From Verrucomicrobiales bacterium (lineage in GTDB: Bacteria > Verrucomicrobiota > Verrucomicrobiia > Limisphaerales > CAIMTB01), in assembly GCA_020845805.1 (NCBI GenBank), contig JADLFD010000035.1:1-49045 (forward strand): a stretch of 49,045 nucleotides of DNA, in the 5' to 3' direction. How positions within the stretch are numbered: position 1 is the stretch's first letter; every line of letters begins with the position of its first letter. The notes under the pieces were generated by a model. It made no database searches. It was given only the letters and a program-made list of their open reading frames with translations, and was not told where the DNA came from. Position numbers and translations under genes: made by a program. Shown in pieces: positions 17,807-38,255 of this stretch.

Positions 17807-20800
17807 TTAGGAGGCGAGGCCGGCCAGCGCGATGGGCGCGGGTTGGCCGGGTTGATCGACCGGTCCGGTGTAGCCCACGCGGACGTCGAGTCCGAGCGAC
17901 TGCATTTCCTTGACCAGCACGTTGAAGGATTCCGGAACACCCGCCTCGAGGGCGTTGTCCCCCTTGACGATGCTCTCGTAGATCCTCGTACGGCCCTGGA
18001 CATCGTCCGATTTGACCGTGAGGAGCTCCTGGAGCGTGTATGCGGCGCCGTAGGCCTCCATGGCCCACACTTCCATTTCGCCGAACCGCTGACCGCCGTA
18101 CTGCGCCTTGCCGCCCAGCGGTTGCTGGGTGACGAGGGAGTAGGGGCCCACGGCGCGGGCGTGGATCTTGTCGGCCACGAGATGGCCGAGCTTCATCATG
18201 TAGATGTAGCCGACGACCACTTCCTGGTCGTAAGCCTCACCCGTGCGTCCGTCATAAAGGATGCTCTTGCCCGCCTCTGAGACGAGGGAGTTGCCCTGTT
18301 CCGTCTTGAGCTTGCTGGAGGCGCGCTTGAGGTGTTCGCGGATCTCGAACTCCTTGATGCCGTCGAACACCGGCGTGGCGAAGCGCATGCCGAGGATGCG
18401 CGCCGCCCAGCCCAAGTGGGTTTCCAGCAGCTGCCCGACGTTCATGCGCGAAGGCACGCCCAGCGGGTTCAGCACGATATCGACCGGGGTTCCGTCGGCC
18501 AGGAACGGCATGTCCTCCTCGGGAACGATCTTGGCGACGACACCCTTGTTACCGTGGCGTCCGGCCATTTTGTCCCCGACGGACAGCTTGCGCTTGGAGG
18601 CGATGTAGACCTTGACCTGCTTGATGATGCCGGGATCGACGTCATCTCCGGATTCGATGCGCTCCATCTCCTCGTCGTGCTGCATCTGGAGATCATCGAA
18701 CTTCTTCTTAAACTGCCCGATGATCTCGTTGATCTTGTTCCGGATCGGGGAGGGGTCGATCTCGATGCGGTCATAGACCTGAGCCAGCTTGCGCAGCAGG
18801 GTCTTGGTGATCTTGCGATTGGCGGGGATGATGATCTCGCCGGTCTCGCTGTTCACGACATCGAGCGGGATCTTCTCGCCGAGCAGGATGTTGGAGAGGG
18901 CCTCGGTGAGCTGCTCGCGCAGTTCCTCGGTCTTCGACTTGTGATCGTCCTGGACCTGCTTGGCCTGTTTCCGGTTGTCGCCATCGACGGTGCGGGCGGC
19001 GACGGTGGAGGCGACGGTCTTCTCGCTGTCCTTCTTCGAGGAGACCTTGACGTCCATGACGATGCCGTAGGTGCCGGAGGGAACCTTCAGGGAGGTGTCC
19101 TTCACGTCGGCGGCCTTCTCACCGAAGATCGCGCGCAGCAGCCGTTCCTCGGGGGCGAGTTCGGTCTCGGACTTGGGGGTGATCTTGCCGACGAGGATGT
19201 CGCCGGGTTTGACCTCAGCGCCGACGCGGATGACGCCGTCGGGTCCGAGGTTCTTCAACGCTTCCTCGCCCAGGTTGGGGATGTCGCGCGTGATTTCCTC
19301 GGGTCCGAGCTTGGTGTCTCGGGCGCCGACCTCGAACTCGTCGATGTGGATGCTCGTGAAGATGTCCTCCTTCACGATGCGTTCGCTGATGAGGATGGCA
19401 TCCTCGAAGTTGTAGCCGTTCCACGGCATGAACGCCACGAGCACGTTGCGACCCAAGGCCAGCTCCCCGTTCTCGGTGCAGGGGCCGTCGGCGATGACCT
19501 GGCCCTTCTTCACGGCGTCGCCCTTGGCGACGAGGGTTTTCTGGTTGATGCAGGTGGCGGCGTTCGAGCGCATGAACTTGCGCACGCTGTAGACGAACAC
19601 GCCGTTGCCCGGGTCGTTTTTGATCTTCTTCTTCGTCTCGGGGAGCTTGCCGTCCGAAGTGATGATGACCTGGCTGCCGGTGACGGAGGCGACCTTGCCG
19701 GTTTCCTCGGCGACGAGAACGGCGCGCGAGTCGCGGGCCACGCGTTCCTCGAGCCCGGTGGCGACGAAGGGCGCTTCGGTGACGAGGAGGGGCACGGCCT
19801 GGCGCTGCATGTTCGAACCCATCAGCGCGCGGTTCGCGTCGTCATGCTCCAGGAACGGAATGAGCGAGGCGGCCACCGAGACGAGCTGCTTCGGCGACAC
19901 GTCCATGTAGTCGATCGCCTTGGGTTCGGCGTCGATGAAATCCCCCTTGCGGCGGCAGGTGACGCGTTCGGTGAGGAAGTTGCCCTTCTCATCGATGGTG
20001 GCGTTGGCCTGGGCGATGACGTAGTTCTCGTCGCGATCCGCGGTGAGATACTCCATCAGGGTGGTCACCTTGCCGTGTTCCACCTTGCGGTAGGGCGTTT
20101 CGATGAACCCGAAGTCATTGATGCGCGCGAAGGTCGCGAGGGATGCGATGAGGCCGATGTTCGGGCCTTCCGGCGTTTCCACAGGGCAGATGCGGCCGTA
20201 GTGGGACGGATGGACGTCGCGGACCTCGAAGCCGGCGCGGTCGCGGGACAGACCCCCGGGCCCGAGCGCGGACAGGCGGCGCTTGTGCGTGAGCTCGGCC
20301 AGGGGGTTGATCTGGTCCATGAACTGGCTGAGCTGGGACCGTCCGAAGAAGTCGCGGATCACCGCCGACAGCGCCTTCGGATTGATCAGCTTCTGCGGCG
20401 TCATGGTGTCCATGCTCTGATCGAACAGAGTCATGCGTTCCTTCACCAGCCGTTCGGTGCGCGCCAGGCCGACGCGGCATTGGTTGGCGAGCAATTCCCC
20501 CACTGTTCGGACGCGGCGGCTGCCCAAGTGATCGATGTCGTCGAGGCTGCCTTCTCCCTTCTTGAGCATGAGCAGGTAGCGCGTGGCCGCGATCAGGTCC
20601 TGCTTGGTGAGGATGCGGGAGTCCTGCTTGTCGGGGAGTCCGAGTTTCTGATTGATCTTGTACCGGCCGACGCGGCCCAGGTCATAGCGCTTCGGATCGA
20701 AGAAAAGGCGCTTGATGAGGGCCCGTGCGTTGGCGGCGGTCGGCGGATCACCGGGACGGAGGCGGCGGTAGATGTCCTTGAGGGCTTCATCCTCGTTCCG

Positions 20801-21721
20801 CGTGGGATCCTTCTTGAGGCATTTGATGACGATGCCGTCATCCACCGTCGTGTCGACCACCTTGATCCGGTTGACGCCCAGCTCGGCGATCTGCTTGACC
20901 ACTACTTTGGAGAGGGGCTCGAAGGCCCGCGCCACCACGATCCCCTTGTCGAGGTCCATGGCATCCTCGATGAGGACCTTGTTCTGGATGTCATCCAGGG
21001 CTTCGGCCTGTTTCACCGAGAGCTCTTCGATGTCGTAGAAGAGGCGCAGGACCTCGTGGTCCGTACCGCGGATCTTCTCGTCGCCCTTCTCCTTGTCGTC
21101 GAGAAAGGCGAGGGCGCGGAAGAAAGTGGTGACCAGGAACTTCCGGCGGCGTTTCTTACGATCCAGGTAGACGTAGAGGAGGTCGCTGGTGTCGAACTGG
21201 GCCTCGTACCAGGAGCCGCGGTCGGGGATGATGCGGAAGCCGTGGAGCATCTTCCCGTTGGCATGCTGGGTGGCTTCGAAGGCGAGACCGGGGGAACGGT
21301 GGAGCTGGCTGACGATGACGCGTTCGGCGCCGTTAATGACGAAGGTTCCCTGAGGGGTCATCAGGGGCAGTTCGCCCATGAACACCTTCTCCTCCTTGAT
21401 GCCGGCTTCCTCCTCGAGGTGGAAGGTGACGTGGAGGGGGGCGCCGAAGGTGAGTCCTTCCCGGATGCAATCCAGCCAGTCGATCTTGGGATCGCCGATT
21501 TCGTAGGAATGGAACTTGAGCACGACTTTGCCGTCGTAACTCTCAATCGGGAACACCTCGGTGAACACGGCCTGGAGGCCGGTGTTCTTCCTGCGGGAAG
21601 GCGCGACGTCGCGCTGGAGAAATTCTTCGTAGGAATTAACCTGAAGCTCGATCAGGTTGGGTGGGGCGATGACCTCGCGGATCTTGCCGAAGTTGGTCCG
21701 TTCCGTCGCGCGGTGTGCCAT
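17807..21721 (-). CDS. rpoB: DNA-directed RNA polymerase subunit beta
   Basis: [63 protein letters not shown]; start chosen at [13 protein letters not shown]. Confidence 0.99.
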
Positions 21722-21914
21722 GGTGATGGGGGCTAGGGGCTGGGGCATTTGCCGGCCGAACACGTACATCGTCCCGAGCGGAGAACAAAAAAGCAGGAGC
21801 CCGGCCGGCGCCGGCTGCCCGCTTTGCTAGTTTTGGCCCTGTGTGTCCCTCCGCCCGGGACGGCAATCGGACACAATCAGGGATGGTTTTTGCCTGGACG
21901 AACAGGAATCGAGA

Positions 21915-27332: not shown

Positions 27333-28955
27333 GTGGCCGAGGTTCGGTCGAGGCTGCGACGGTTTTGTCTCTGGGGCGGGCTTTTGGGAACCCTGACTCG
27401 GGTGGTGGTTCCCGTGGTTCCTTGGCTGTTGGGGGACTGGTGGGTGGGATTTCCGAGGGGGCTGCGGGCAGCCGGTTTGGGGATTTGGCTGGGATGGGTG
27501 CTGTGGACCGTGTGGAGGCAGGTCGTGCGGCCCTACGGGAAACTCCCGCAAGGGGATGCCCTGGCACTCTTTATCGAGCGCAGCGCGCCGTCCCTGCGCA
27601 GCCGTTTGATCAGTGCGGTCCAGCTGGGGCGGGACTCCTTGGACGCCATTCCAGCGGCGTTTGTCGATCGGCTGCAAGCGGATGCGCATCGTGCCGCGGC
27701 CACCCTGGATCCGAGAACTCTGGTGCCAGTGGAGGGCCTCCGCCGGCAGGCGTGGCGGACGCTTCCCGGGCTGCTGGTGCTGGGGATTTGGCTGGGGTTG
27801 GCCTGGCCCACGAGCGGCATCCTGATCCGGCGCGCCCTCCTCGAGGACGTGGCGGTTCCGCGAAAAACGCGGCTCCTGGAAGTGACGGGTCCGGTGCGGG
27901 TGGGGCGAGGCGACGAGGTCACGTTGCGCGCGCGCGCCGAAGGCATGATTCCCGACGCCGGGGTGCTGGAGATGCGACATGGCTCCGGGCGCGTGCAGAC
28001 CGTCCCGCTGGACCGCGAACCAGGGAAGCCGGGCGCGTTTGCCCGTGTGCTCCCTGGACTGGCCTCCAGTTTCCAGTATCGCGTGCGCGTCAACGATGCG
28101 GAGAGTGAGCCATTTACCGTGGAGGTTCTGCCGAGGCCGCTGATCACCAATCTCACTCTGACGCAGGTGTGGCCGGCCTACACCGGCCGTGGCGAACAGG
28201 TGCGACGCGCCGGGGAGCTCTCGCTGCTGAAGGGGAGTCGGTTGCGGGTGGAGGGTGAGGCCAACCGACCCCTGACCAACGCGGTGCTGCGGATTGGCGG
28301 TGCGGATCGTATGATGGAGGCGGAACTCGATGCGGGGACTCCGGACCGCGTCCGTTTCGAATTCCCGGTGGACGACGAGCGCATCAACAGTTTGACCCTC
28401 GATTTGAAGGATCGCGACGGCATTCCCTCCCGGGACTCGGCCGTGTACGCGGTGGAAGTCGTCCCCGATCGTGCCCCGCAAGTGCGGTTGGTGTTGCCGG
28501 CGAGACGGGAGGAACTGGCCACGCGTCGCGGCACGGTTCTGGTGGCGTTCGAGGCCGAAGACGACGTGGGCTTGGGCGAACTCTGGCTGTGCCATCAGGC
28601 CGCGGGCAGCACGAACACGACGCCGGTACGAGTGGCGTTGGAGGTCGAGAAGGACGTGGGAACGGCGTTGAAGCGTCGGGTGGACTGGGTGATTGCCTCC
28701 ATGAAGCCGGGGCCAGCCGAGGGGGCGATGATCGAATTTTGGATCGAAGCCACGGACCGAAACGACGTCGCGGGCCCGGGGGTCGGGCGCAGTGAGAAGT
28801 ATTTGTTGCGGGTGGTGTCGGAAGCGGAGAAGCGGGCGGATTTGCTGGCCCGCGCGGGGGACGCGATTGGTCGGCTGGGGGACGTGGCCCAAGGGCAGGA
28901 TCGTTTGAATGAATCCCTGGGTCGGATCATTATGCTTCGTCAGACCGCGCCATGA
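27333..28955 (+). CDS. DUF4175-like membrane protein
   Basis: ORF 27042..28955; N-terminal TM helices, GDALALFIERSAPSLRSRLISAVQL, VWPAYTGRGEQVRRAGELSLLKGSRLRV; GTG 27333 is the likely start. Confidence 0.7.
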   Translation: MAEVRSRLRRFCLWGGLLGTLTRVVVPVVPWLLGDWWVGFPRGLRAAGLGIWLGWVLWTVWRQVVRPYGKLPQGDALALFIERSAPSLRSRLISAVQLGRDSLDAIPAAFVDRLQADAHRAAATLDPRTLVPVEGLRRQAWRTLPGLLVLGIWLGLAWPTSGILIRRALLEDVAVPRKTRLLEVTGPVRVGRGDEVTLRARAEGMIPDAGVLEMRHGSGRVQTVPLDREPGKPGAFARVLPGLASSFQYRVRVNDAESEPFTVEVLPRPLITNLTLTQVWPAYTGRGEQVRRAGELSLLKGSRLRVEGEANRPLTNAVLRIGGADRMMEAELDAGTPDRVRFEFPVDDERINSLTLDLKDRDGIPSRDSAVYAVEVVPDRAPQVRLVLPARREELATRRGTVLVAFEAEDDVGLGELWLCHQAAGSTNTTPVRVALEVEKDVGTALKRRVDWVIASMKPGPAEGAMIEFWIEATDRNDVAGPGVGRSEKYLLRVVSEAEKRADLLARAGDAIGRLGDVAQGQDRLNESLGRIIMLRQTAP

Positions 28956-31639
28956 GCCCTTACCTTGAATCCAAGTTTCCTTCCCGGGCGTGCGAGGGCC
29001 TGGGCGCGGTCGCCCCAGGAGCGACCCACGCGCGTCCGGGGCTGAAGCGCCCGGCAGGGGCGTTGGTGCTGGGGCTGGTGCTGATGCTTGGCCTGGTGAT
29101 GGGGCCGGGGATTCTGCGACTCCGGGCCGCGGCATCGCCACGAAATGACGGGGTGGCCCAGGCGCAAGCCGGGCAGGAACAACTGCGGCAGGGGACCGCG
29201 CGGGTCGGGGCTCAACTGGATCTCATCCTGGAAGAGACGCGACGCAACGGTATCACGGGAGAGGACGTGCAACTTCTGGGGGCCATCCGCGGCATCCTGG
29301 GACAATTGAGTGAGGCTGATATGGTGGCGGTAATCAGCCTGCTTCAGGAAGCGCGCGGCAACTTGGAGGGCGGCGTGCAGCGGGCGCGGTTGCTGGATGC
29401 CTTCAGCACCCAGAAAACCGTGGGGGTGAAGCTGCGGCAGATTTTGATGGAGTACCAGCGGCAGCAGGAGTTGAGCGGCATCGCGGCGCGCCTGGAAGAG
29501 TTGGCGGCGAGGCAGCACGTGGCCATGCGCGACGTGCGCGAGCTGGCGGCTTCCGTGGCCGGGCGGAAGAAGGAGTGGCTGGCGGAGAATCACCGTATCT
29601 CGCTTCAGCTGCAGGTGAGCGAGCAGCAGTCCCTGCGCGACGAGGTGGAAGCGGTCATCCGCCGGCTCACCGGTTGGAAATCCGAGGACGAAGAGGACGA
29701 CTCCGCGGCACGGGCCGCCGAGGTGCTGCGGGACCCCGCGGTGATTCAGTTGGCGCGCCGGTTGGACCGCGTAGTGCTCGATCTCAACCAGGGATTGATG
29801 CTGAGCGCGGCGGGAGGGCAGCGCGAAGTTCGTGGATTGCTGCGCGAAGTCGCTCGTCAGTTGCAGCCTCCGCAGGACGAGTTGGACGCGCTGCAAGCCT
29901 CGCTGCACGAGGTGGAGGGACTGTTGGGGCGGCAGGAGGAGACCCAGGCTTCGACCCGTGCGTTGCCGGATCGCGCGGCGAAGCTGGAACCGCTCGTGCG
30001 TTCCCTGGCCGAGTTGGTGGATGACACCGACGTGGCACGGCTGGCCTCAGCACGCGTGGACAACGAAGTGGCGGAGCAGATCGGGGCCGCGGTGGGGCGG
30101 ATGCAGGAGGCGCGTGGAGCGTTGGAGGGGGCCACGGGGGAATGGCGTGCCCGACGACTGGCGGCCACCACCCAGCAGGAACTGGCCGTGGCGCGGTTGG
30201 AGACGGCGCGTCGGATCCTCCAGGAACGCATCGACGCCTTGGAGAAACGCCGGGAGGCCATGGTGGATCCCATGTCCAATCTCAAGCAGGTGCGGGACGA
30301 CGTGGCGGAATTATTGCGGCGCGAGCAGGAGCTGAAAGCGGCGGCGGCGGAGGTAGCCACGGACCCGGCCAAGCTTCGGCCGATGGCCCCGTCGCAAGGC
30401 GATATCGGCGATCGAAGTGAGGATACGGCGCGGCGGGCGGCCGTGGATTCCACCGAGGCCGCGGAGCAGATCGCGGAGGCCACCGCTCAAATGCGTCGAT
30501 CGCAGCGGAGTCTGGGCGAGGGCCGGAACGAGGCGGGGGCCCAGCAGGCGGCGGTAGACGCCCTGAGCCGCGCCCTGGCCATCCTGGACGAACAGATGGC
30601 GGCGCTGGAGGCAGCGGAGAAGGAGTTGGCGGACCTGGAAAAGCTGCTGCAGGAATTGATCGCGCTCATCGAACGTCAGAAGAAGCTCAACGCCGAGACG
30701 GCGCGCCTGGCGCGCAAGATGAGCGGGCGCGAACCCAAGGTGGTCGGCACCGATCAGAACGCGATCGCGTCGGCCACCCGCGATCTGGAAGGGCGCGTGC
30801 CTCCCAGTGTTCCCCAAGCGGCGACCTATCTCGGGGACGGCGCCACGCAGATGGTCCTGGCGGGCAATGAGCTGGGATCCGCTCGGGCGGCGGAAGCCCG
30901 ACCCGCGCAGGATGAAGCCCTGGAGAATCTGCTGCGGGCGCGACGCGAGTTGGAGGAGCGCATCGCCCAGTTGAAGGACATGCTGGGGGAGCCCGCCGAG
31001 GAGGCTTCGTTGGAGGAGTTGGCCAAGATGGTCAAGGAGGCGCAGCACGACACGACGGAAGCGTTGGCGGCGGATCAGATGCCAAAGAAGGCCACGGGTC
31101 TACACGAAGCGGGAGAGCATATTGAGCCCGCGACCTCCGGGCGCATGGGGCGGGTGCCGCGCATGATCCGCGATGCGCTGCAGCAGGCCGATCGCTCGCT
31201 CCAGGAGGGGTCAGCTTCTGCCGAGGCGGGGGACGGGGCGTCCGCCGACCGGGAGGGAGCGAAGGCGCAGGAGGCTTTGGCAGCGGCGGCGGCGGCTTTG
31301 GACCTGGCCATGGCCGGGATGGGGCAGCAGCCCGGCGAGGGTGAGGGGCAGGGTGGCCAAGGCAAAAACCCGTCTGCGAGCCAGGGTCGTGGCCGCGGCA
31401 AGAAGCCGGGCGCGGTCGCGGGGAAAGGTACGGGGGACGCCGGAAACTTTTTTGGTGCGGGGGGTGCTGACGGGCCCAAGCGTGCGGCTGCCGGCGGTGG
31501 GAAATTCATTGGTCTCCCGGCGCGCGAACGCGCGGCGCTGCTGCAGTCGCAGGGCGAGCGGTACCCACAGGAGTACGCGCCGCAGATCGAGCAATATTTG
31601 AAGAACCTCTCCGACCAGGTGCAGGGGGCGCCGCGATGA
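28952..31639 (+). CDS. Large coiled-coil envelope protein with Gly-rich C-terminal region
   Basis: 895 aa; N-terminal hydrophobic segment, long Ala/Glu/Arg-rich heptads, GEGEGQGGQGKNP..., LPARERAALLQSQGERYPQEYAPQIEQYLKNLS; ATGA overlap with upstream gene. Confidence 0.75.
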   Translation: MSPYLESKFPSRACEGLGAVAPGATHARPGLKRPAGALVLGLVLMLGLVMGPGILRLRAAASPRNDGVAQAQAGQEQLRQGTARVGAQLDLILEETRRNGITGEDVQLLGAIRGILGQLSEADMVAVISLLQEARGNLEGGVQRARLLDAFSTQKTVGVKLRQILMEYQRQQELSGIAARLEELAARQHVAMRDVRELAASVAGRKKEWLAENHRISLQLQVSEQQSLRDEVEAVIRRLTGWKSEDEEDDSAARAAEVLRDPAVIQLARRLDRVVLDLNQGLMLSAAGGQREVRGLLREVARQLQPPQDELDALQASLHEVEGLLGRQEETQASTRALPDRAAKLEPLVRSLAELVDDTDVARLASARVDNEVAEQIGAAVGRMQEARGALEGATGEWRARRLAATTQQELAVARLETARRILQERIDALEKRREAMVDPMSNLKQVRDDVAELLRREQELKAAAAEVATDPAKLRPMAPSQGDIGDRSEDTARRAAVDSTEAAEQIAEATAQMRRSQRSLGEGRNEAGAQQAAVDALSRALAILDEQMAALEAAEKELADLEKLLQELIALIERQKKLNAETARLARKMSGREPKVVGTDQNAIASATRDLEGRVPPSVPQAATYLGDGATQMVLAGNELGSARAAEARPAQDEALENLLRARRELEERIAQLKDMLGEPAEEASLEELAKMVKEAQHDTTEALAADQMPKKATGLHEAGEHIEPATSGRMGRVPRMIRDALQQADRSLQEGSASAEAGDGASADREGAKAQEALAAAAAALDLAMAGMGQQPGEGEGQGGQGKNPSASQGRGRGKKPGAVAGKGTGDAGNFFGAGGADGPKRAAAGGGKFIGLPARERAALLQSQGERYPQEYAPQIEQYLKNLSDQVQGAPR

Positions 31640-32796
31640 GCGCGGATTCGCATCATGACCTTCGTCCGGGCGTCGGGAGATGCCGACCGGAGTTCGGGTC
31701 CCGAATCAGGAGGCGAATCCTGGGCTGGGGCTGGGTGATGCTCGTCCTGTGCCTGGGTCACGGGACCGTGCCGGGGGCGGAGACGGCTCCCCGGCGTGAA
31801 GATCCGGCGGCGGCCAGCCTGAAACTGGACGCCACGACCGACGTCCCGGTGGTGGATCCGAGCACGGAGGAATTGATCCGTGCGGCGGTCCGGTTCCTGG
31901 CTTCCAAACAGCTGCCCAACGGTTCGTGGGGGATGACGGATTTTGAGCGGCGGCATCCAGTGGCTATGACCGGCTACACCTTGATGGCTTTCCTGGCGGC
32001 CGGCCATTTGCCGGGCGAAGGCGAGGAAGGCAAGGCAGTGCGGTCTGGACTCCAATACCTGCTCGACGTGGCCAAGCCGGACGGGACCTTCGGCGATCGC
32101 AACCTCGGGCAGTACATGTACAACCACGGCGTGGCCACCATCGCGCTGGCCGAGGTCTATGGTCAGAGCCCTTCGCCTGATCTGAAGGTCAAGCTGGACC
32201 GCGCCATCCGGCTCATCATCACCTCGCAGAATGCGGAGGGAGGGTGGCGGTATCGCCCCGTCGCCCAGGACGCCGATGTTTCGGTGACGGTGTTGCAGGT
32301 CGTCGGGTTGCGCGCTGCCAAGAACGCGGGCATCGACGTGCCGCAGGAGACCATCGAGCGCGCAGTGAAGTATGTGCGGACCTGTTTCGATCCGGGATCC
32401 GGCGGTTTCACTTATCAGCCGGGCAACCGGGCGCCGGGTTATGCCCGAACGGCAGCGGCGATCTATTCGCTCCAGGTTTGTGGTGTCTACGACGATCCCC
32501 TCGTGCAGCGTGGTTCCGAGTATCTGATCAAGAACTGGGGGCAGCGAGAATGGTTCACCTACGGGACGTTTTATTCCGTTCCCGCCCAGTACATGCTGGG
32601 TGGCGAGGCGTGGAAATTCTGGTACCCGCGCATGCGCACCCAGTTGCAGCGGCAGGCCATACGGGAGGGGGACCGCGCCTACTGGGACGGGTCGATGGAC
32701 ATGGGGTCCAACGGGCTGGGGCCCATTTATGCCACCGCTGTTTACACTGCGGTGCTCGCGATGCCGTGGAACTACGTCCCCATCTACCAGCGATGA
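31636..32796 (+). CDS. Prenyltransferase/squalene oxidase repeat (alpha/alpha-toroid) protein
   Basis: 386 aa; repeated toroid motifs FLASKQLPNGSWG, YLLDVAKPDGTFGD, IITSQNAEGGWRY, SGGFTYQPGNRAPGYARTAAAIYSLQ; signal-like N terminus. Confidence 0.8.
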   Translation: MSADSHHDLRPGVGRCRPEFGSRIRRRILGWGWVMLVLCLGHGTVPGAETAPRREDPAAASLKLDATTDVPVVDPSTEELIRAAVRFLASKQLPNGSWGMTDFERRHPVAMTGYTLMAFLAAGHLPGEGEEGKAVRSGLQYLLDVAKPDGTFGDRNLGQYMYNHGVATIALAEVYGQSPSPDLKVKLDRAIRLIITSQNAEGGWRYRPVAQDADVSVTVLQVVGLRAAKNAGIDVPQETIERAVKYVRTCFDPGSGGFTYQPGNRAPGYARTAAAIYSLQVCGVYDDPLVQRGSEYLIKNWGQREWFTYGTFYSVPAQYMLGGEAWKFWYPRMRTQLQRQAIREGDRAYWDGSMDMGSNGLGPIYATAVYTAVLAMPWNYVPIYQR

Positions 32797-34139
32797 GAAT
32801 TTTCGCCGCGTTGTTGTTTCTGGGGAGCATGGTCTGGACCTCGGCCCAGGCGGCGGCGCGCCCGGGCACCGTGCGCGTGGTGACGGGCGACACCGTGCAG
32901 GGTTTGGTGACGGCGGCCACCAACGGGTTGGCAGTGTCTCCCGCGTCCGGGGAGCCCAAGATCATCCCGTGGGCCCAGTTGATGGAAGCCACCTTCGGGG
33001 ACGCTACGCCGCCCGCGGCTTCGATTACTGCGCCCGCTACGCCCGCAACAGCGACGGCGGCGCCTACCGAAGTGGGCGGGTGGAACGGAGTGCCAGTCGG
33101 AACCACCCTGGCCGGCAAACTCGAGGAGGCCCCGGAGCACCTGTTGGTCACCGGACAAGGCCGCGGGCTGATGGGCAATGCGGACGCCTGTTTTCTGGCG
33201 GAGCGAAAACTGGACGGGTCGGGTCAGGTATCCGCCTCGCTGGAATCCTTCGATGGCCAGGCGCCCGAGGCAGCGGCGGGGATCATGCTGCGCGACAACC
33301 TGGGGGAGGCGGCGGCCTATGCGTTCCTGGGGCAGCGCGTCGGCTCGGGCGTTTGTTTCCAGTACCGGCAGATCGCGTCGGGTATGACCATGCGCGTGAC
33401 CAATGTCGCCATGCAGCTGCCGGCCTGGCTGAGATTATCGCGGGTCGGGGGGGCGATCCTGGCGGAGGTCTCCACCGACGGTCTGCAATGGAGCCAGGTG
33501 GGGCGTGTGAACGTGAACCTGGGGCAGAACGTCCGCGCGGTTTTGGCAGTGGCCAGTGGCTCGGATGAGGCGGCCGCCACGGCGCGCTTTCGCAAGCCCG
33601 CCGTGGGTGCGCGGGGCCTGGGTTACGTGGCGTCCACCGGCTATCCTCGGCTGCGGCTGCGGGGCGGTTCCACCTTGGTGGGACCGGTCGAATCCGCGGA
33701 CGATTCCGTGGTTCGGCTGGGAGGGCCGTGGAAGGGGACGATGGTTTCGTTGCTGAATGTCGCGCGCCTGGAGTTTGCACCGCTCAGTCCGGATCACGAG
33801 GCCCGATTGGCGGACGAACGCGTGGGCGTCATGCTGGCCGACGGCGATTTCCTTGACGGTCGGTTGCGGGGAATCGCCACCAATACCGCCACCCTCAGTT
33901 CGTTGCTGTTCGGGTTTCGCAAGTTCGCCCTCGGCAGCGAGGCTGCGGTGGTCGTGGTCGGTTCCCCGGAAGAGGACGACACGCGGTTTCAGGTGTTGAT
34001 GAAAAATGGTTCCGAACTACGCGCGCGCGATCTCGGCACCTCAGGCGAGACGCTGCTGGTGGAGGCGCCGCTGCTGGGGGCGCTGCGTGTGGATTGGAAT
34101 GAGGTGAGCCGCATCCAGCGTTTTGCGGAACCCCGTTAA
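32793..34139 (+). CDS. Secreted protein with central DUF1349-like beta-sandwich domain
   Basis: MRIFAALLFLGSMVWTSAQAA signal peptide; AAGIMLRDNLGEAAAYAFLG...PAWLRLSRVGGAILAEVSTDGLQWSQVGRVNVNLGQNVRAVLAVASGSD; ATGA overlap with upstream gene. Confidence 0.7.
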   Translation: MRIFAALLFLGSMVWTSAQAAARPGTVRVVTGDTVQGLVTAATNGLAVSPASGEPKIIPWAQLMEATFGDATPPAASITAPATPATATAAPTEVGGWNGVPVGTTLAGKLEEAPEHLLVTGQGRGLMGNADACFLAERKLDGSGQVSASLESFDGQAPEAAAGIMLRDNLGEAAAYAFLGQRVGSGVCFQYRQIASGMTMRVTNVAMQLPAWLRLSRVGGAILAEVSTDGLQWSQVGRVNVNLGQNVRAVLAVASGSDEAAATARFRKPAVGARGLGYVASTGYPRLRLRGGSTLVGPVESADDSVVRLGGPWKGTMVSLLNVARLEFAPLSPDHEARLADERVGVMLADGDFLDGRLRGIATNTATLSSLLFGFRKFALGSEAAVVVVGSPEEDDTRFQVLMKNGSELRARDLGTSGETLLVEAPLLGALRVDWNEVSRIQRFAEPR

Positions 34140-34151
34140 GGGAGCGGTGCC

Positions 34152-34823
34152 ATGGCGTGTTCGCTCTCGCAGCACGACGATCCGGCACGTGGAGCTGGGG
34201 GCCGGATCCCGGGGATCCGCAACCGAAACGTACGCCGACGCTTGCTCCGGGTGGTCGGTATCGGGTTCGCGTGCGCCCTGCTTTCTTCCTGCACGGGAAC
34301 CCAGCCCCCAGGTCCACTTCACTCGTCCGCAAAGCCACGTCCCACCGTGGTGCCGTCGGAACCGCGGCAGGATCCGTCCTCGGACGGATCGGATTGGGCG
34401 CGAACCGCGTTGGAGCAGGGCGCAGATCCGGAGGCGTTGGCCGCCACGTTTCGTCGAGTTCCGGGCGGAGAGTTGGAGCTGCTGGCGCGGATGCTCAACG
34501 CCGCCATGCACGAGTCTCGAGACGTGGGGGCTGCGCTTCGCGTGGCGGCGGGACTGGCGGGGCAGGCCGAGTTGGATCGCGCGGGCTGCCGGGTGGTGGG
34601 CGAGGTCGCGGGTCGCGTCTGCTGCCTGCGCGGATCGTTTGCAGCGCGCGCCTTGGATGGACTGGCGGATGCGGTTCGGGCGGGGTCGGCGCCGGTCTGT
34701 CTGGACGCGGAGACTGCCGGTCGGCTGGAGGTGATGCGGGCCTCACCCGATCGTGACCTGGCTGCCTCCGCGGGGACGCTGCTGGAGCTTTTGCTGGGGC
34801 TTCCGCACGGACCGGGGTCCTGA
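34152..34823 (+). CDS. Putative lipoprotein of unknown function
   Basis: 223 aa ORF; hydrophobic stretch ending in lipobox LSSC; 12 nt after previous gene. Confidence 0.6.
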   Translation: MACSLSQHDDPARGAGGRIPGIRNRNVRRRLLRVVGIGFACALLSSCTGTQPPGPLHSSAKPRPTVVPSEPRQDPSSDGSDWARTALEQGADPEALAATFRRVPGGELELLARMLNAAMHESRDVGAALRVAAGLAGQAELDRAGCRVVGEVAGRVCCLRGSFAARALDGLADAVRAGSAPVCLDAETAGRLEVMRASPDRDLAASAGTLLELLLGLPHGPGS

Positions 34824-36237: not shown

Positions 36238-36409
36238 TTCGTAGTGGTCATGGGCCGCGCCAGGGGCAGCGGACGGGCGATTTAGTGAGGGCAGCGGGAC
36301 TCCGTGGCAACGGAAAAGCGCGGCGGAGGGCCGGGTGTGGGCGTGGCGATTCCGCGATCATTCGGGAAAAGCCCTTGAATGGGGAGGGGCGGCGTCGCTA
36401 TGCAACCAC

Positions 36410-37033
36410 ATGCCTCTGCTGCTGGCGAAGGGCGGATGGGTTTTCTGGCTGATCCTGGTGACGGGCGCGATCGCGGTCGCGGTCTTCATCGAGCGTCTGC
36501 TTCATTATCACCGCGCCCAGATCAATTCCGTCGAGTTCCTGAACGGCGTGAAGAACGTGTTGAAACGCGCGAACATCGTCGAGGCGGTGTCCATTTGCGA
36601 CGCCACGCCCGGGCCGGTGGCGCGCATGGTGAAAGTGGCCATTCTGAATCGCGACCGCGGCCGGGAAGGCATGCGCGAGGCGCTGGAGGAGGCGGGGTTG
36701 GTGGAGGTGCCGCGACTGGAGGAAAAGCTGGGGGTGCTGGCCACGGTGGCGCAGATCGCGCCGCTCATGGGGTTGTTCGGCGCGGTGATCGGCTTCATGC
36801 GCGTCTTCTGGCGGGTGCAGGTCACCGGGTTGCCGCTGCAGCCGCCGGAGTTTGCCGCCGGCATGTGGCAGGGCCTGATCTGCCTGGGCGCGGGAATCGC
36901 GGTGGCGGTGCCCGCCTATGTGGCGCACAACTTTCTCGTCTCGAGGTTGAACGATGTGCTGCTCGAAATGGAGACTTCCTCGACGGAGATCATTCATCTG
37001 CTGAGCGGACGCGCCGAGAGCACTTCGTCATGA
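36410..37033 (+). CDS. MotA/TolQ/ExbB proton channel family protein
   Basis: MPLLLAKGGWVFWLILVTGAIAVAVFIERLLHYHRAQ, IAPLMGLFGAVIGFMRVF, ICLGAGIAVAVPAYVAHNF. Confidence 0.88.
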   Translation: MPLLLAKGGWVFWLILVTGAIAVAVFIERLLHYHRAQINSVEFLNGVKNVLKRANIVEAVSICDATPGPVARMVKVAILNRDRGREGMREALEEAGLVEVPRLEEKLGVLATVAQIAPLMGLFGAVIGFMRVFWRVQVTGLPLQPPEFAAGMWQGLICLGAGIAVAVPAYVAHNFLVSRLNDVLLEMETSSTEIIHLLSGRAESTSS

Positions 37034-37461
37034 GACTGACGCGCTCCATCAAGATGCTGCGCGGTCCGATCGACGCCTCGGCGCTGGCGGGGACCTTGTT
37101 TCTGCTGTGGACCGCAACCTTGATGCATTCCTCGTTGGTGCTGCCTCCGGGGCTGCGTCTGCAACTGCCGGAGGCCAAGGGCCTGTGGGGCGAGGTGATC
37201 CCTGAGATGTCCCTCGCGGTCGATGCGCGTCACCGCATCCTGTTCGAGCACCAGTTGGTGGCGGAGACCAATCTGGCGCCCCTGCTGCGGGCTCGCGCGC
37301 GCCAGTACGGCACCAACGCCAGTCTCCTGTTGATGGCGGATCGCGGGGTGACCACGGAGGTATTGCTCAGGCTGGGCAATCTCGCTCGGGAAGCAGGGGT
37401 CGCCGAGGTGGTGATCGCCTCCAGTCCGACCTTGGCGACCGAGGTGGGGGAGGGGCCGTGA
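37030..37461 (+). CDS. ExbD/TolR-like biopolymer transport protein
   Basis: MRLTRSIKMLRGPIDASALAGTLFLLWTATLMHSSLVLPPGLRLQLPEA; ATGA overlap with exbB-like gene. Confidence 0.82.
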   Translation: MRLTRSIKMLRGPIDASALAGTLFLLWTATLMHSSLVLPPGLRLQLPEAKGLWGEVIPEMSLAVDARHRILFEHQLVAETNLAPLLRARARQYGTNASLLLMADRGVTTEVLLRLGNLAREAGVAEVVIASSPTLATEVGEGP

Positions 37462-38255
37462 GTGTGGTGACGACGGCACGCCGTGACTGGTGGCGTTGGT
37501 TTCGTCAGCCTTGGGTCGTGCTGGCGGCCGGGGTCCTGGTGATGGAGTTCGTGGTGCTGTGGGCGGTGTCGGCCAAAGGCCATTGGGGCACGGGAAAATC
37601 CCCGCGTGCGCGGCATTCCCTGGCGCCGCTGGCGGACGTGGACACCAGGTTGAGCCAGTGGCTCTGGGTGATGCATCCCGGGATCATGCTCGCACCGACC
37701 ACCAAGGATTTCTCCGGGGCGGCATGGATGGTCCGCAAAGGCGTGGAGGTGGAGTTCGAAAGCCTGAAGCCCACCGTGCAACCCCTCCCTTACGAACCGC
37801 TGCCGCGAGTGGTGACTGAGGTTGGGCTGGGATTGCGCAGCGGACGATCCCACGACTGGCAGTGGGAGCTGCCGACGGTGCCGCTGACATTTCCCGCGGT
37901 GTCCGCACTTCCGTTTCCCGCCACCACCTCCGCGCGGTTGGAGCAAGGTGGGTCGAGCCTCGTCCTACGGTTGGCAGACGAATTGCCGCTGGCCCCGGCG
38001 GGAACCGCGCCGGAACGATTGGTATTGCGCCTGACCGTCGACCGCCAAGGGGCGGTGGCCGCGCCACCTTTGGTCTGGGAGAGCAGCGGCGATGCGGCAT
38101 TGGACGCGGCCCTGGTGTCTCGCGCGTTGCGCTGGACGTTTGAAGTCCCCGCCGATCGCCAGGCACCGGGCGGGGATTTCTCGGTGCTCGTCCGGGTGGA
38201 TTGGGGAATTCAGACTGTAGCGGCGCCGACCCCTACGCCCGGCGTAACCCCATGA
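37458..38255 (+). CDS. TonB-like protein (N-terminal TM, TonB C-terminal-like domain)
   Basis: One TM helix near N terminus; C-term RLTVDRQGAVAAPPLVWESSGDAALDAALVSRALRWTFEVP; GTG start overlapping previous stop (GTGA). Confidence 0.65.
   Translation: MSVVTTARRDWWRWFRQPWVVLAAGVLVMEFVVLWAVSAKGHWGTGKSPRARHSLAPLADVDTRLSQWLWVMHPGIMLAPTTKDFSGAAWMVRKGVEVEFESLKPTVQPLPYEPLPRVVTEVGLGLRSGRSHDWQWELPTVPLTFPAVSALPFPATTSARLEQGGSSLVLRLADELPLAPAGTAPERLVLRLTVDRQGAVAAPPLVWESSGDAALDAALVSRALRWTFEVPADRQAPGGDFSVLVRVDWGIQTVAAPTPTPGVTP

Follow-up and report, generated by a model that had tools for sequence, protein, structure and literature searches.

We analysed a window of 49,045 nucleotides from contig JADLFD010000035.1 of a Verrucomicrobiales bacterium, which contains five consecutive genes for envelope proteins, here labelled A to E. 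Genes A, B, C and D (plus E) very probably make up the downstream half, with the membrane and periplasmic components, of a larger MoxR/DUF58/BatA/VWA gene set. The full order of this set is MoxR, DUF58, BatA/VWA, a VWA/GATase-like gene, A, B, C and D. It is of the MoxR/DUF58/VWA (Bat-like) kind and is distinct from the classical Bat operon. A preliminary description of the window, made from its sequence, had considered none of the five products assignable to a known pathway, a view that is not supported, given the contiguity of the set with MoxR, DUF58, BatA and VWA genes in several families. The further proposal of an undescribed system stands insofar as no paper found in the open-licence literature describes the gene set, but the kind of system to which it belongs is already known.

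Organization of the Gene Set

The positions of the five genes are given in Table 1. ATGA stop/start overlaps occur at 28952 (A/B), 31636 (B/C) and 32793 (C/D), and D and E are spaced by 12 nt; on re-check, the coordinates and junctions reported in the preliminary description were all exact. The third-position GC content of 0.75-0.81 across A to E, together with the presence of homologues in relatives, indicates that these are real coding genes. Homologues of A, B, C and D are present in four further genomes of the window's genus. Upstream, A is separated from an EF-Tu gene on the opposite strand by 764 nt containing tRNA-Thr. On the 3' side of E lies an N-acetylglutamate synthase-type gene (argA) on the minus strand, followed by ExbB-ExbD-TonB genes. 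A promoter scan found nothing.

Table 1. Positions of genes A to E in the window
Gene	Coordinates	Strand	Remarks
A	27333..28955	+	GTG start, 540 aa
B	28952..31639	+	895 aa
C	31636..32796	+	386 aa
D	32793..34139	+	448 aa
E	34152..34823	+	223 aa, lipoprotein

The tight coupling of the genes had been taken to signify a stoichiometric complex. Gene order is indeed kept in relatives, but the exact ATGA overlaps are not, and in three relatives of the same genus A and B are separated by 9-19 nt. Overlaps of this type are also ordinary within the window, since ExbB and ExbD (ATGA at 37030) and ExbD and TonB (GTGA at 37458) overlap likewise. Because the exact overlaps are not kept in relatives, coupling was rejected as evidence for a complex; the gene set is, in addition, broken in two in some families. 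An envelope-spanning complex is itself a plausible candidate.

The ExbB-ExbD-TonB-type trio (36335-38255, plus strand) adjoins the operon in two other genomes (G069 and G120) but not in a third (G013). A functional link to the trio was rejected, as argA intervenes on the opposite strand and the trio is not beside the operon in G013. At three loci of the same genus (L031, L032 and L033) an L,D-transpeptidase-like gene, missing from this position in the window, lies between D/E and argA. Elsewhere in the window, a 1134-aa open frame (18332-21736) antisense to rpoB is probably a by-product of high GC content.

Association with MoxR, DUF58 and VWA Genes

MoxR, DUF58, BatA, VWA, A, B and C are contiguous in families f8, f13, f24 and f37, with D mostly the next gene, so that adjacency of MoxR, DUF58 and VWA to the gene set is found in several related families. 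At linked loci the distance from DUF58 to A is 5.5-7.1 kb and that from A to C is 3.7-5.7 kb.

A search for orthologs covered 146 genomes of the order. Orthologs of C form a sharp upper tier of ∼55-84% identity in 35 of these genomes, distinct from a paralogue tier at ∼27-40%. Every one of the 35 C-bearing genomes has a DUF58 ortholog, and 109 of the 146 are without C, A and DUF58. A was found in 33 genomes, of which 31 also have C. Presence varies even within family f12, where one genome (G068) has A, C and DUF58 and two others (G011 and G098) have none of them above the search thresholds. Shared ancestry inflates co-occurrence p-values, and we therefore rely on contiguity and on the joint pattern of presence and absence. 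The distances of C and DUF58 correlate at 0.92 over nine genomes, a value that common descent alone would likewise yield.

A scan of named genomes returned 80 loci, nearly all from Verrucomicrobiota and including Roseibacillus, Prosthecobacter and Chthoniobacter; a few (L133, L136 and L137) are labelled Planctomycetota. Chthoniobacter flavus Ellin428 (L134) has C together with a D-like gene. A, B and C lie on one strand at 21 of the 80 loci, and VWA is upstream at 18 of these 21, the exceptions being the three loci of the window's genus. A phylum-wide draw, for which the threshold was strict and few candidates were scored per genome, added at least one further genome among 288. The neighbourhood check suggested in the preliminary description has thus been carried out, and the arrangement is kept both within the genus and beyond it, in further families of the order and among named Verrucomicrobiota records. 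The recurrence of A-B-C-D or B-C-D in relatives bears out the idea of a conserved, co-inherited envelope set of uncharacterized proteins.

Paralogous Loci and Relation to Bat Operons

Several paralogous MoxR-DUF58-BatA operons are present within the order, for example at G000:C711 and related loci, and the seven DUF58 matches in the window's genome (G000) indicate that the module is expanded there. Other MoxR-DUF58-BatA-VWA operons of the order encode a protein of ∼1040 aa that joins an A-like half to a coiled-coil-like half. A toroid protein directly follows this fused protein, and D-like proteins are encoded in the paralogous operons too. The fusion of A-like and coiled-coil halves makes A and B probable partners.

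The MRP-subfamily MoxR-DUF58-VWA clusters, including Bat (Bacteroides aerotolerance), have the same core of MoxR, DUF58 and BatA-type VWA genes in the same order and, like the gene set, have membrane partners downstream of that core. In the Bat operon, however, the downstream half is BatC/BatD/BatE, whereas here it is A (Ig-like/DUF4175-like), B, C and D. Matches to BatD lie in a separate MoxR-DUF58-BatA locus (for example G099:C304 and G013:C30; C646 in the window's genome) and not beside the gene set, and membership of the classical Bat operon was rejected on this basis. BatD is a membrane protein with β-rich periplasmic domains, as A also appears to be. This resemblance and the common core could mean that A to D replace BatC/BatD and that the set serves the function of the classical Bat operon, in stress or oxygen tolerance. 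We consider such a role unlikely, as a Bat-type operon that includes a BatD match exists apart from the gene set in the same genomes and no Pfam BatD match was found in A or in the one fused paralogue checked. Work on Bat elsewhere points both ways: moxR and batA mutants of Riemerella show altered stress survival (PMC11834572), but oxidative protection by Bat was not seen in Leptospira (PMC3557215).

Division of the Gene Set between Contigs

In families f12, f26, f30, f39, f40, f41, f46 and f48 A is the last gene of the head of the gene set, and a different contig carries C along with B and often D. In the window's genus, all five genomes have MoxR, DUF58-BatA-VWA and A-B-C-D on three different contigs. 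The window's genome carries MoxR on G000:C413 (73% identity, with the nucleotide-binding motif GVPGLAKT intact) and DUF58-BatA-VWA on G000:C67, the proteins of which have intact VWA DxSxS motifs (DGSES, DHSAS and DQSAS). The contigs are from draft genomes, and assembly breaks could account for some of the separations seen in other families, but several split contigs extend well beyond the gene sets, for example G048:C75 and C99, and G069:C23 and C191. The break point varies between families and agrees within them, and in most split families A remains with the head rather than with B and C. Natural splits at differing points show which blocks of genes stay together.

The separation seen in the window's genus is a point against a single co-regulated system, and could be read to mean that A to E are an independent system, merely adjacent to the MoxR operon in some relatives. 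This is improbable given that the DUF58 head is kept in all C-bearing genomes, that the break point differs by family, and that A mostly splits off with the head and not with B-C.

Properties of the Encoded Proteins

The prediction that all five products are membrane-bound or exported was supported, by membrane helices in the model of A, a hydrophobic segment in B, a lipobox in E and, as judged by eye, signal-peptide-like N termini in C and D, which fall under the hydropathy threshold applied. The earlier labels for A (DUF4175-like) and D (DUF1349-like) correspond to matches that exist, both of them below the Pfam cut-offs: A matches DUF4175 at 1e-5 with 24.2 bits (curated cut-off 27.3) and D matches DUF1349 at 0.008. 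Sequence searches of the PDB with A and with D gave no match.

The structure model of A (pLDDT 84.9) begins with three predicted membrane helices, continues with a series of Ig-like periplasmic domains and closes with a helix at the C terminus; its fold matches are multi-Ig proteins. By profile comparison, A matches the first half of the ∼1040-aa DUF4175-like paralogues with an E-value of 1.7e-33 over 528 columns. The Acinetobacter baumannii division protein AdvA is annotated DUF4175 (PMC7481262) and has this label and membrane helices in common with A, but the likeness is by label only, A's DUF4175 score being under the cut-off.

B is coiled-coil-like, with a composition rich in A, L, E, R, G and Q. 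Hydropathy analysis gives a single hydrophobic segment, at the N terminus, and an alignment of 17 sequences reveals a conserved C-terminal motif; no Pfam family was found for B. The sequence evidence that B is homologous to the coiled-coil-like half of the fused paralogues is only suggestive. A reading of B as cleanly corresponding to the C-terminal half of these DUF4175-like fusions was rejected, the profile comparison being too weak. The weakness of this homology is a point against a single system.

C is, as judged from its sequence, an exported single α/α toroid of the squalene-cyclase/prenyltransferase superfamily. It scores 46.1 bits (4.4e-12) against SQHop_cyclase_C, for which the cut-off is 26.1, but only 37.3 bits against TIGR01507, for which the cut-off is 431, and so belongs to the superfamily but is not a full two-domain squalene-hopene cyclase. 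A PDB sequence search with C matched solely cyclases and cyclase-like proteins. The motif DAD[VI]SVT is present in 18 of 18 aligned orthologs, in place of DxDDTA, the canonical catalytic motif of squalene-hopene cyclases. That C is a periplasmic cyclase or transferase acting on prenyl or triterpene substrates, in an operon that modifies envelope lipids, would accord with its superfamily and its invariant DAD motif, but is hard to credit for an exported protein remote from known prenyl substrates that has one toroid of ∼320 aa (amounting to half a squalene-hopene cyclase), lacks the canonical motif and has no lipid enzymes among its neighbouring genes.

In the structure model of D, short all-β segments flank an exchangeable domain, which by Pfam is ConA/DUF1349-like in the window and PA14 in many relatives. 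The model of the ConA-like domain matches 3mep with a TM-score of 0.77 over the target. These domain types suggest that D may bind glycan via its ConA-like or PA14 domain. D is duplicated at three loci (L042, L043 and L048), where one of the copies carries a long coiled-coil tail and another up to three PA14 domains.

E has a hydrophobic N-terminal segment ending in the lipobox LSSC. It is fast-evolving: phmmer gave 4e-9 and 9e-9 in two relatives, and a third has a visibly similar lipoprotein. Homologues of E are distant and confined to genomes of the same genus. E is thus a genus-level addition, which leaves A-B-C-D and the upstream half as the conserved unit.

Proposed Mechanism and Relation to Other MoxR Systems

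The best explanation overall, that A to D are half of a MoxR system with a glycan-directed output, is on balance probable. It accommodates the gene set, its order, its co-inheritance and the folds of A and D, all of which are observed. A more tentative scheme for the path from MoxR to a glycan structure can be drawn from the types of domain present and from studies of MoxR in other bacteria (PMC11834572, PMC6803598); in it, every contact between proteins, the direction in which the system acts and its substrate are putative. Cytoplasmic MoxR, using ATP, would remodel or load the DUF58/BatA/VWA membrane complex, its action on this inner-membrane complex running through the metal-binding VWA domains. 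The complex would then act on A; the membrane helices and Ig-like domains of A, together with B's long coiled coil, may relay the change into the periplasm. There C could serve as a docking scaffold and D would present its carbohydrate-binding (ConA-like or PA14) domain. The output would be to assemble or maintain a glycan structure at the surface or in the periplasm, perhaps under stress conditions. It is possible, though doubtful, that the set is a distinct Verrucomicrobiota-type, MoxR-powered trans-envelope machine for surface-glycan assembly or sensing, unlike Bat, in which the VWA complex would bear the D domain by way of a toroid and an arm built of coiled coil and Ig domains.

MoxR-DUF58-VWA clusters recur among bacteria and their targets are mostly obscure. 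The gene set supplies defined, co-inherited envelope partners whose folds are recognizable, among them a protein with an exchangeable domain that probably binds glycan, and through the A to D partners the target of the MoxR module becomes testable in Verrucomicrobiota.

Two other known systems bear comparison. The bifidobacterial PFNA operon (pkb2-fn3-aaa-atp-duf58-tgm; PMC6803598), like the gene set, couples MoxR and DUF58 to an outward-facing β-sandwich (FN3) protein, but has a kinase, FN3 and a transglutaminase and is without a toroid or a PA14/ConA-like protein. The MoxR-vWA ternary conflict systems (PMC7159879) share the MoxR and vWA couple with the gene set; none of their third components was seen, the partners here being envelope proteins. 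One MoxR from a paralogous operon scores 41.1 bits against PF20030 (bpMoxR), for which the cut-off is 27, but far higher, at 209 bits, against AAA_3.
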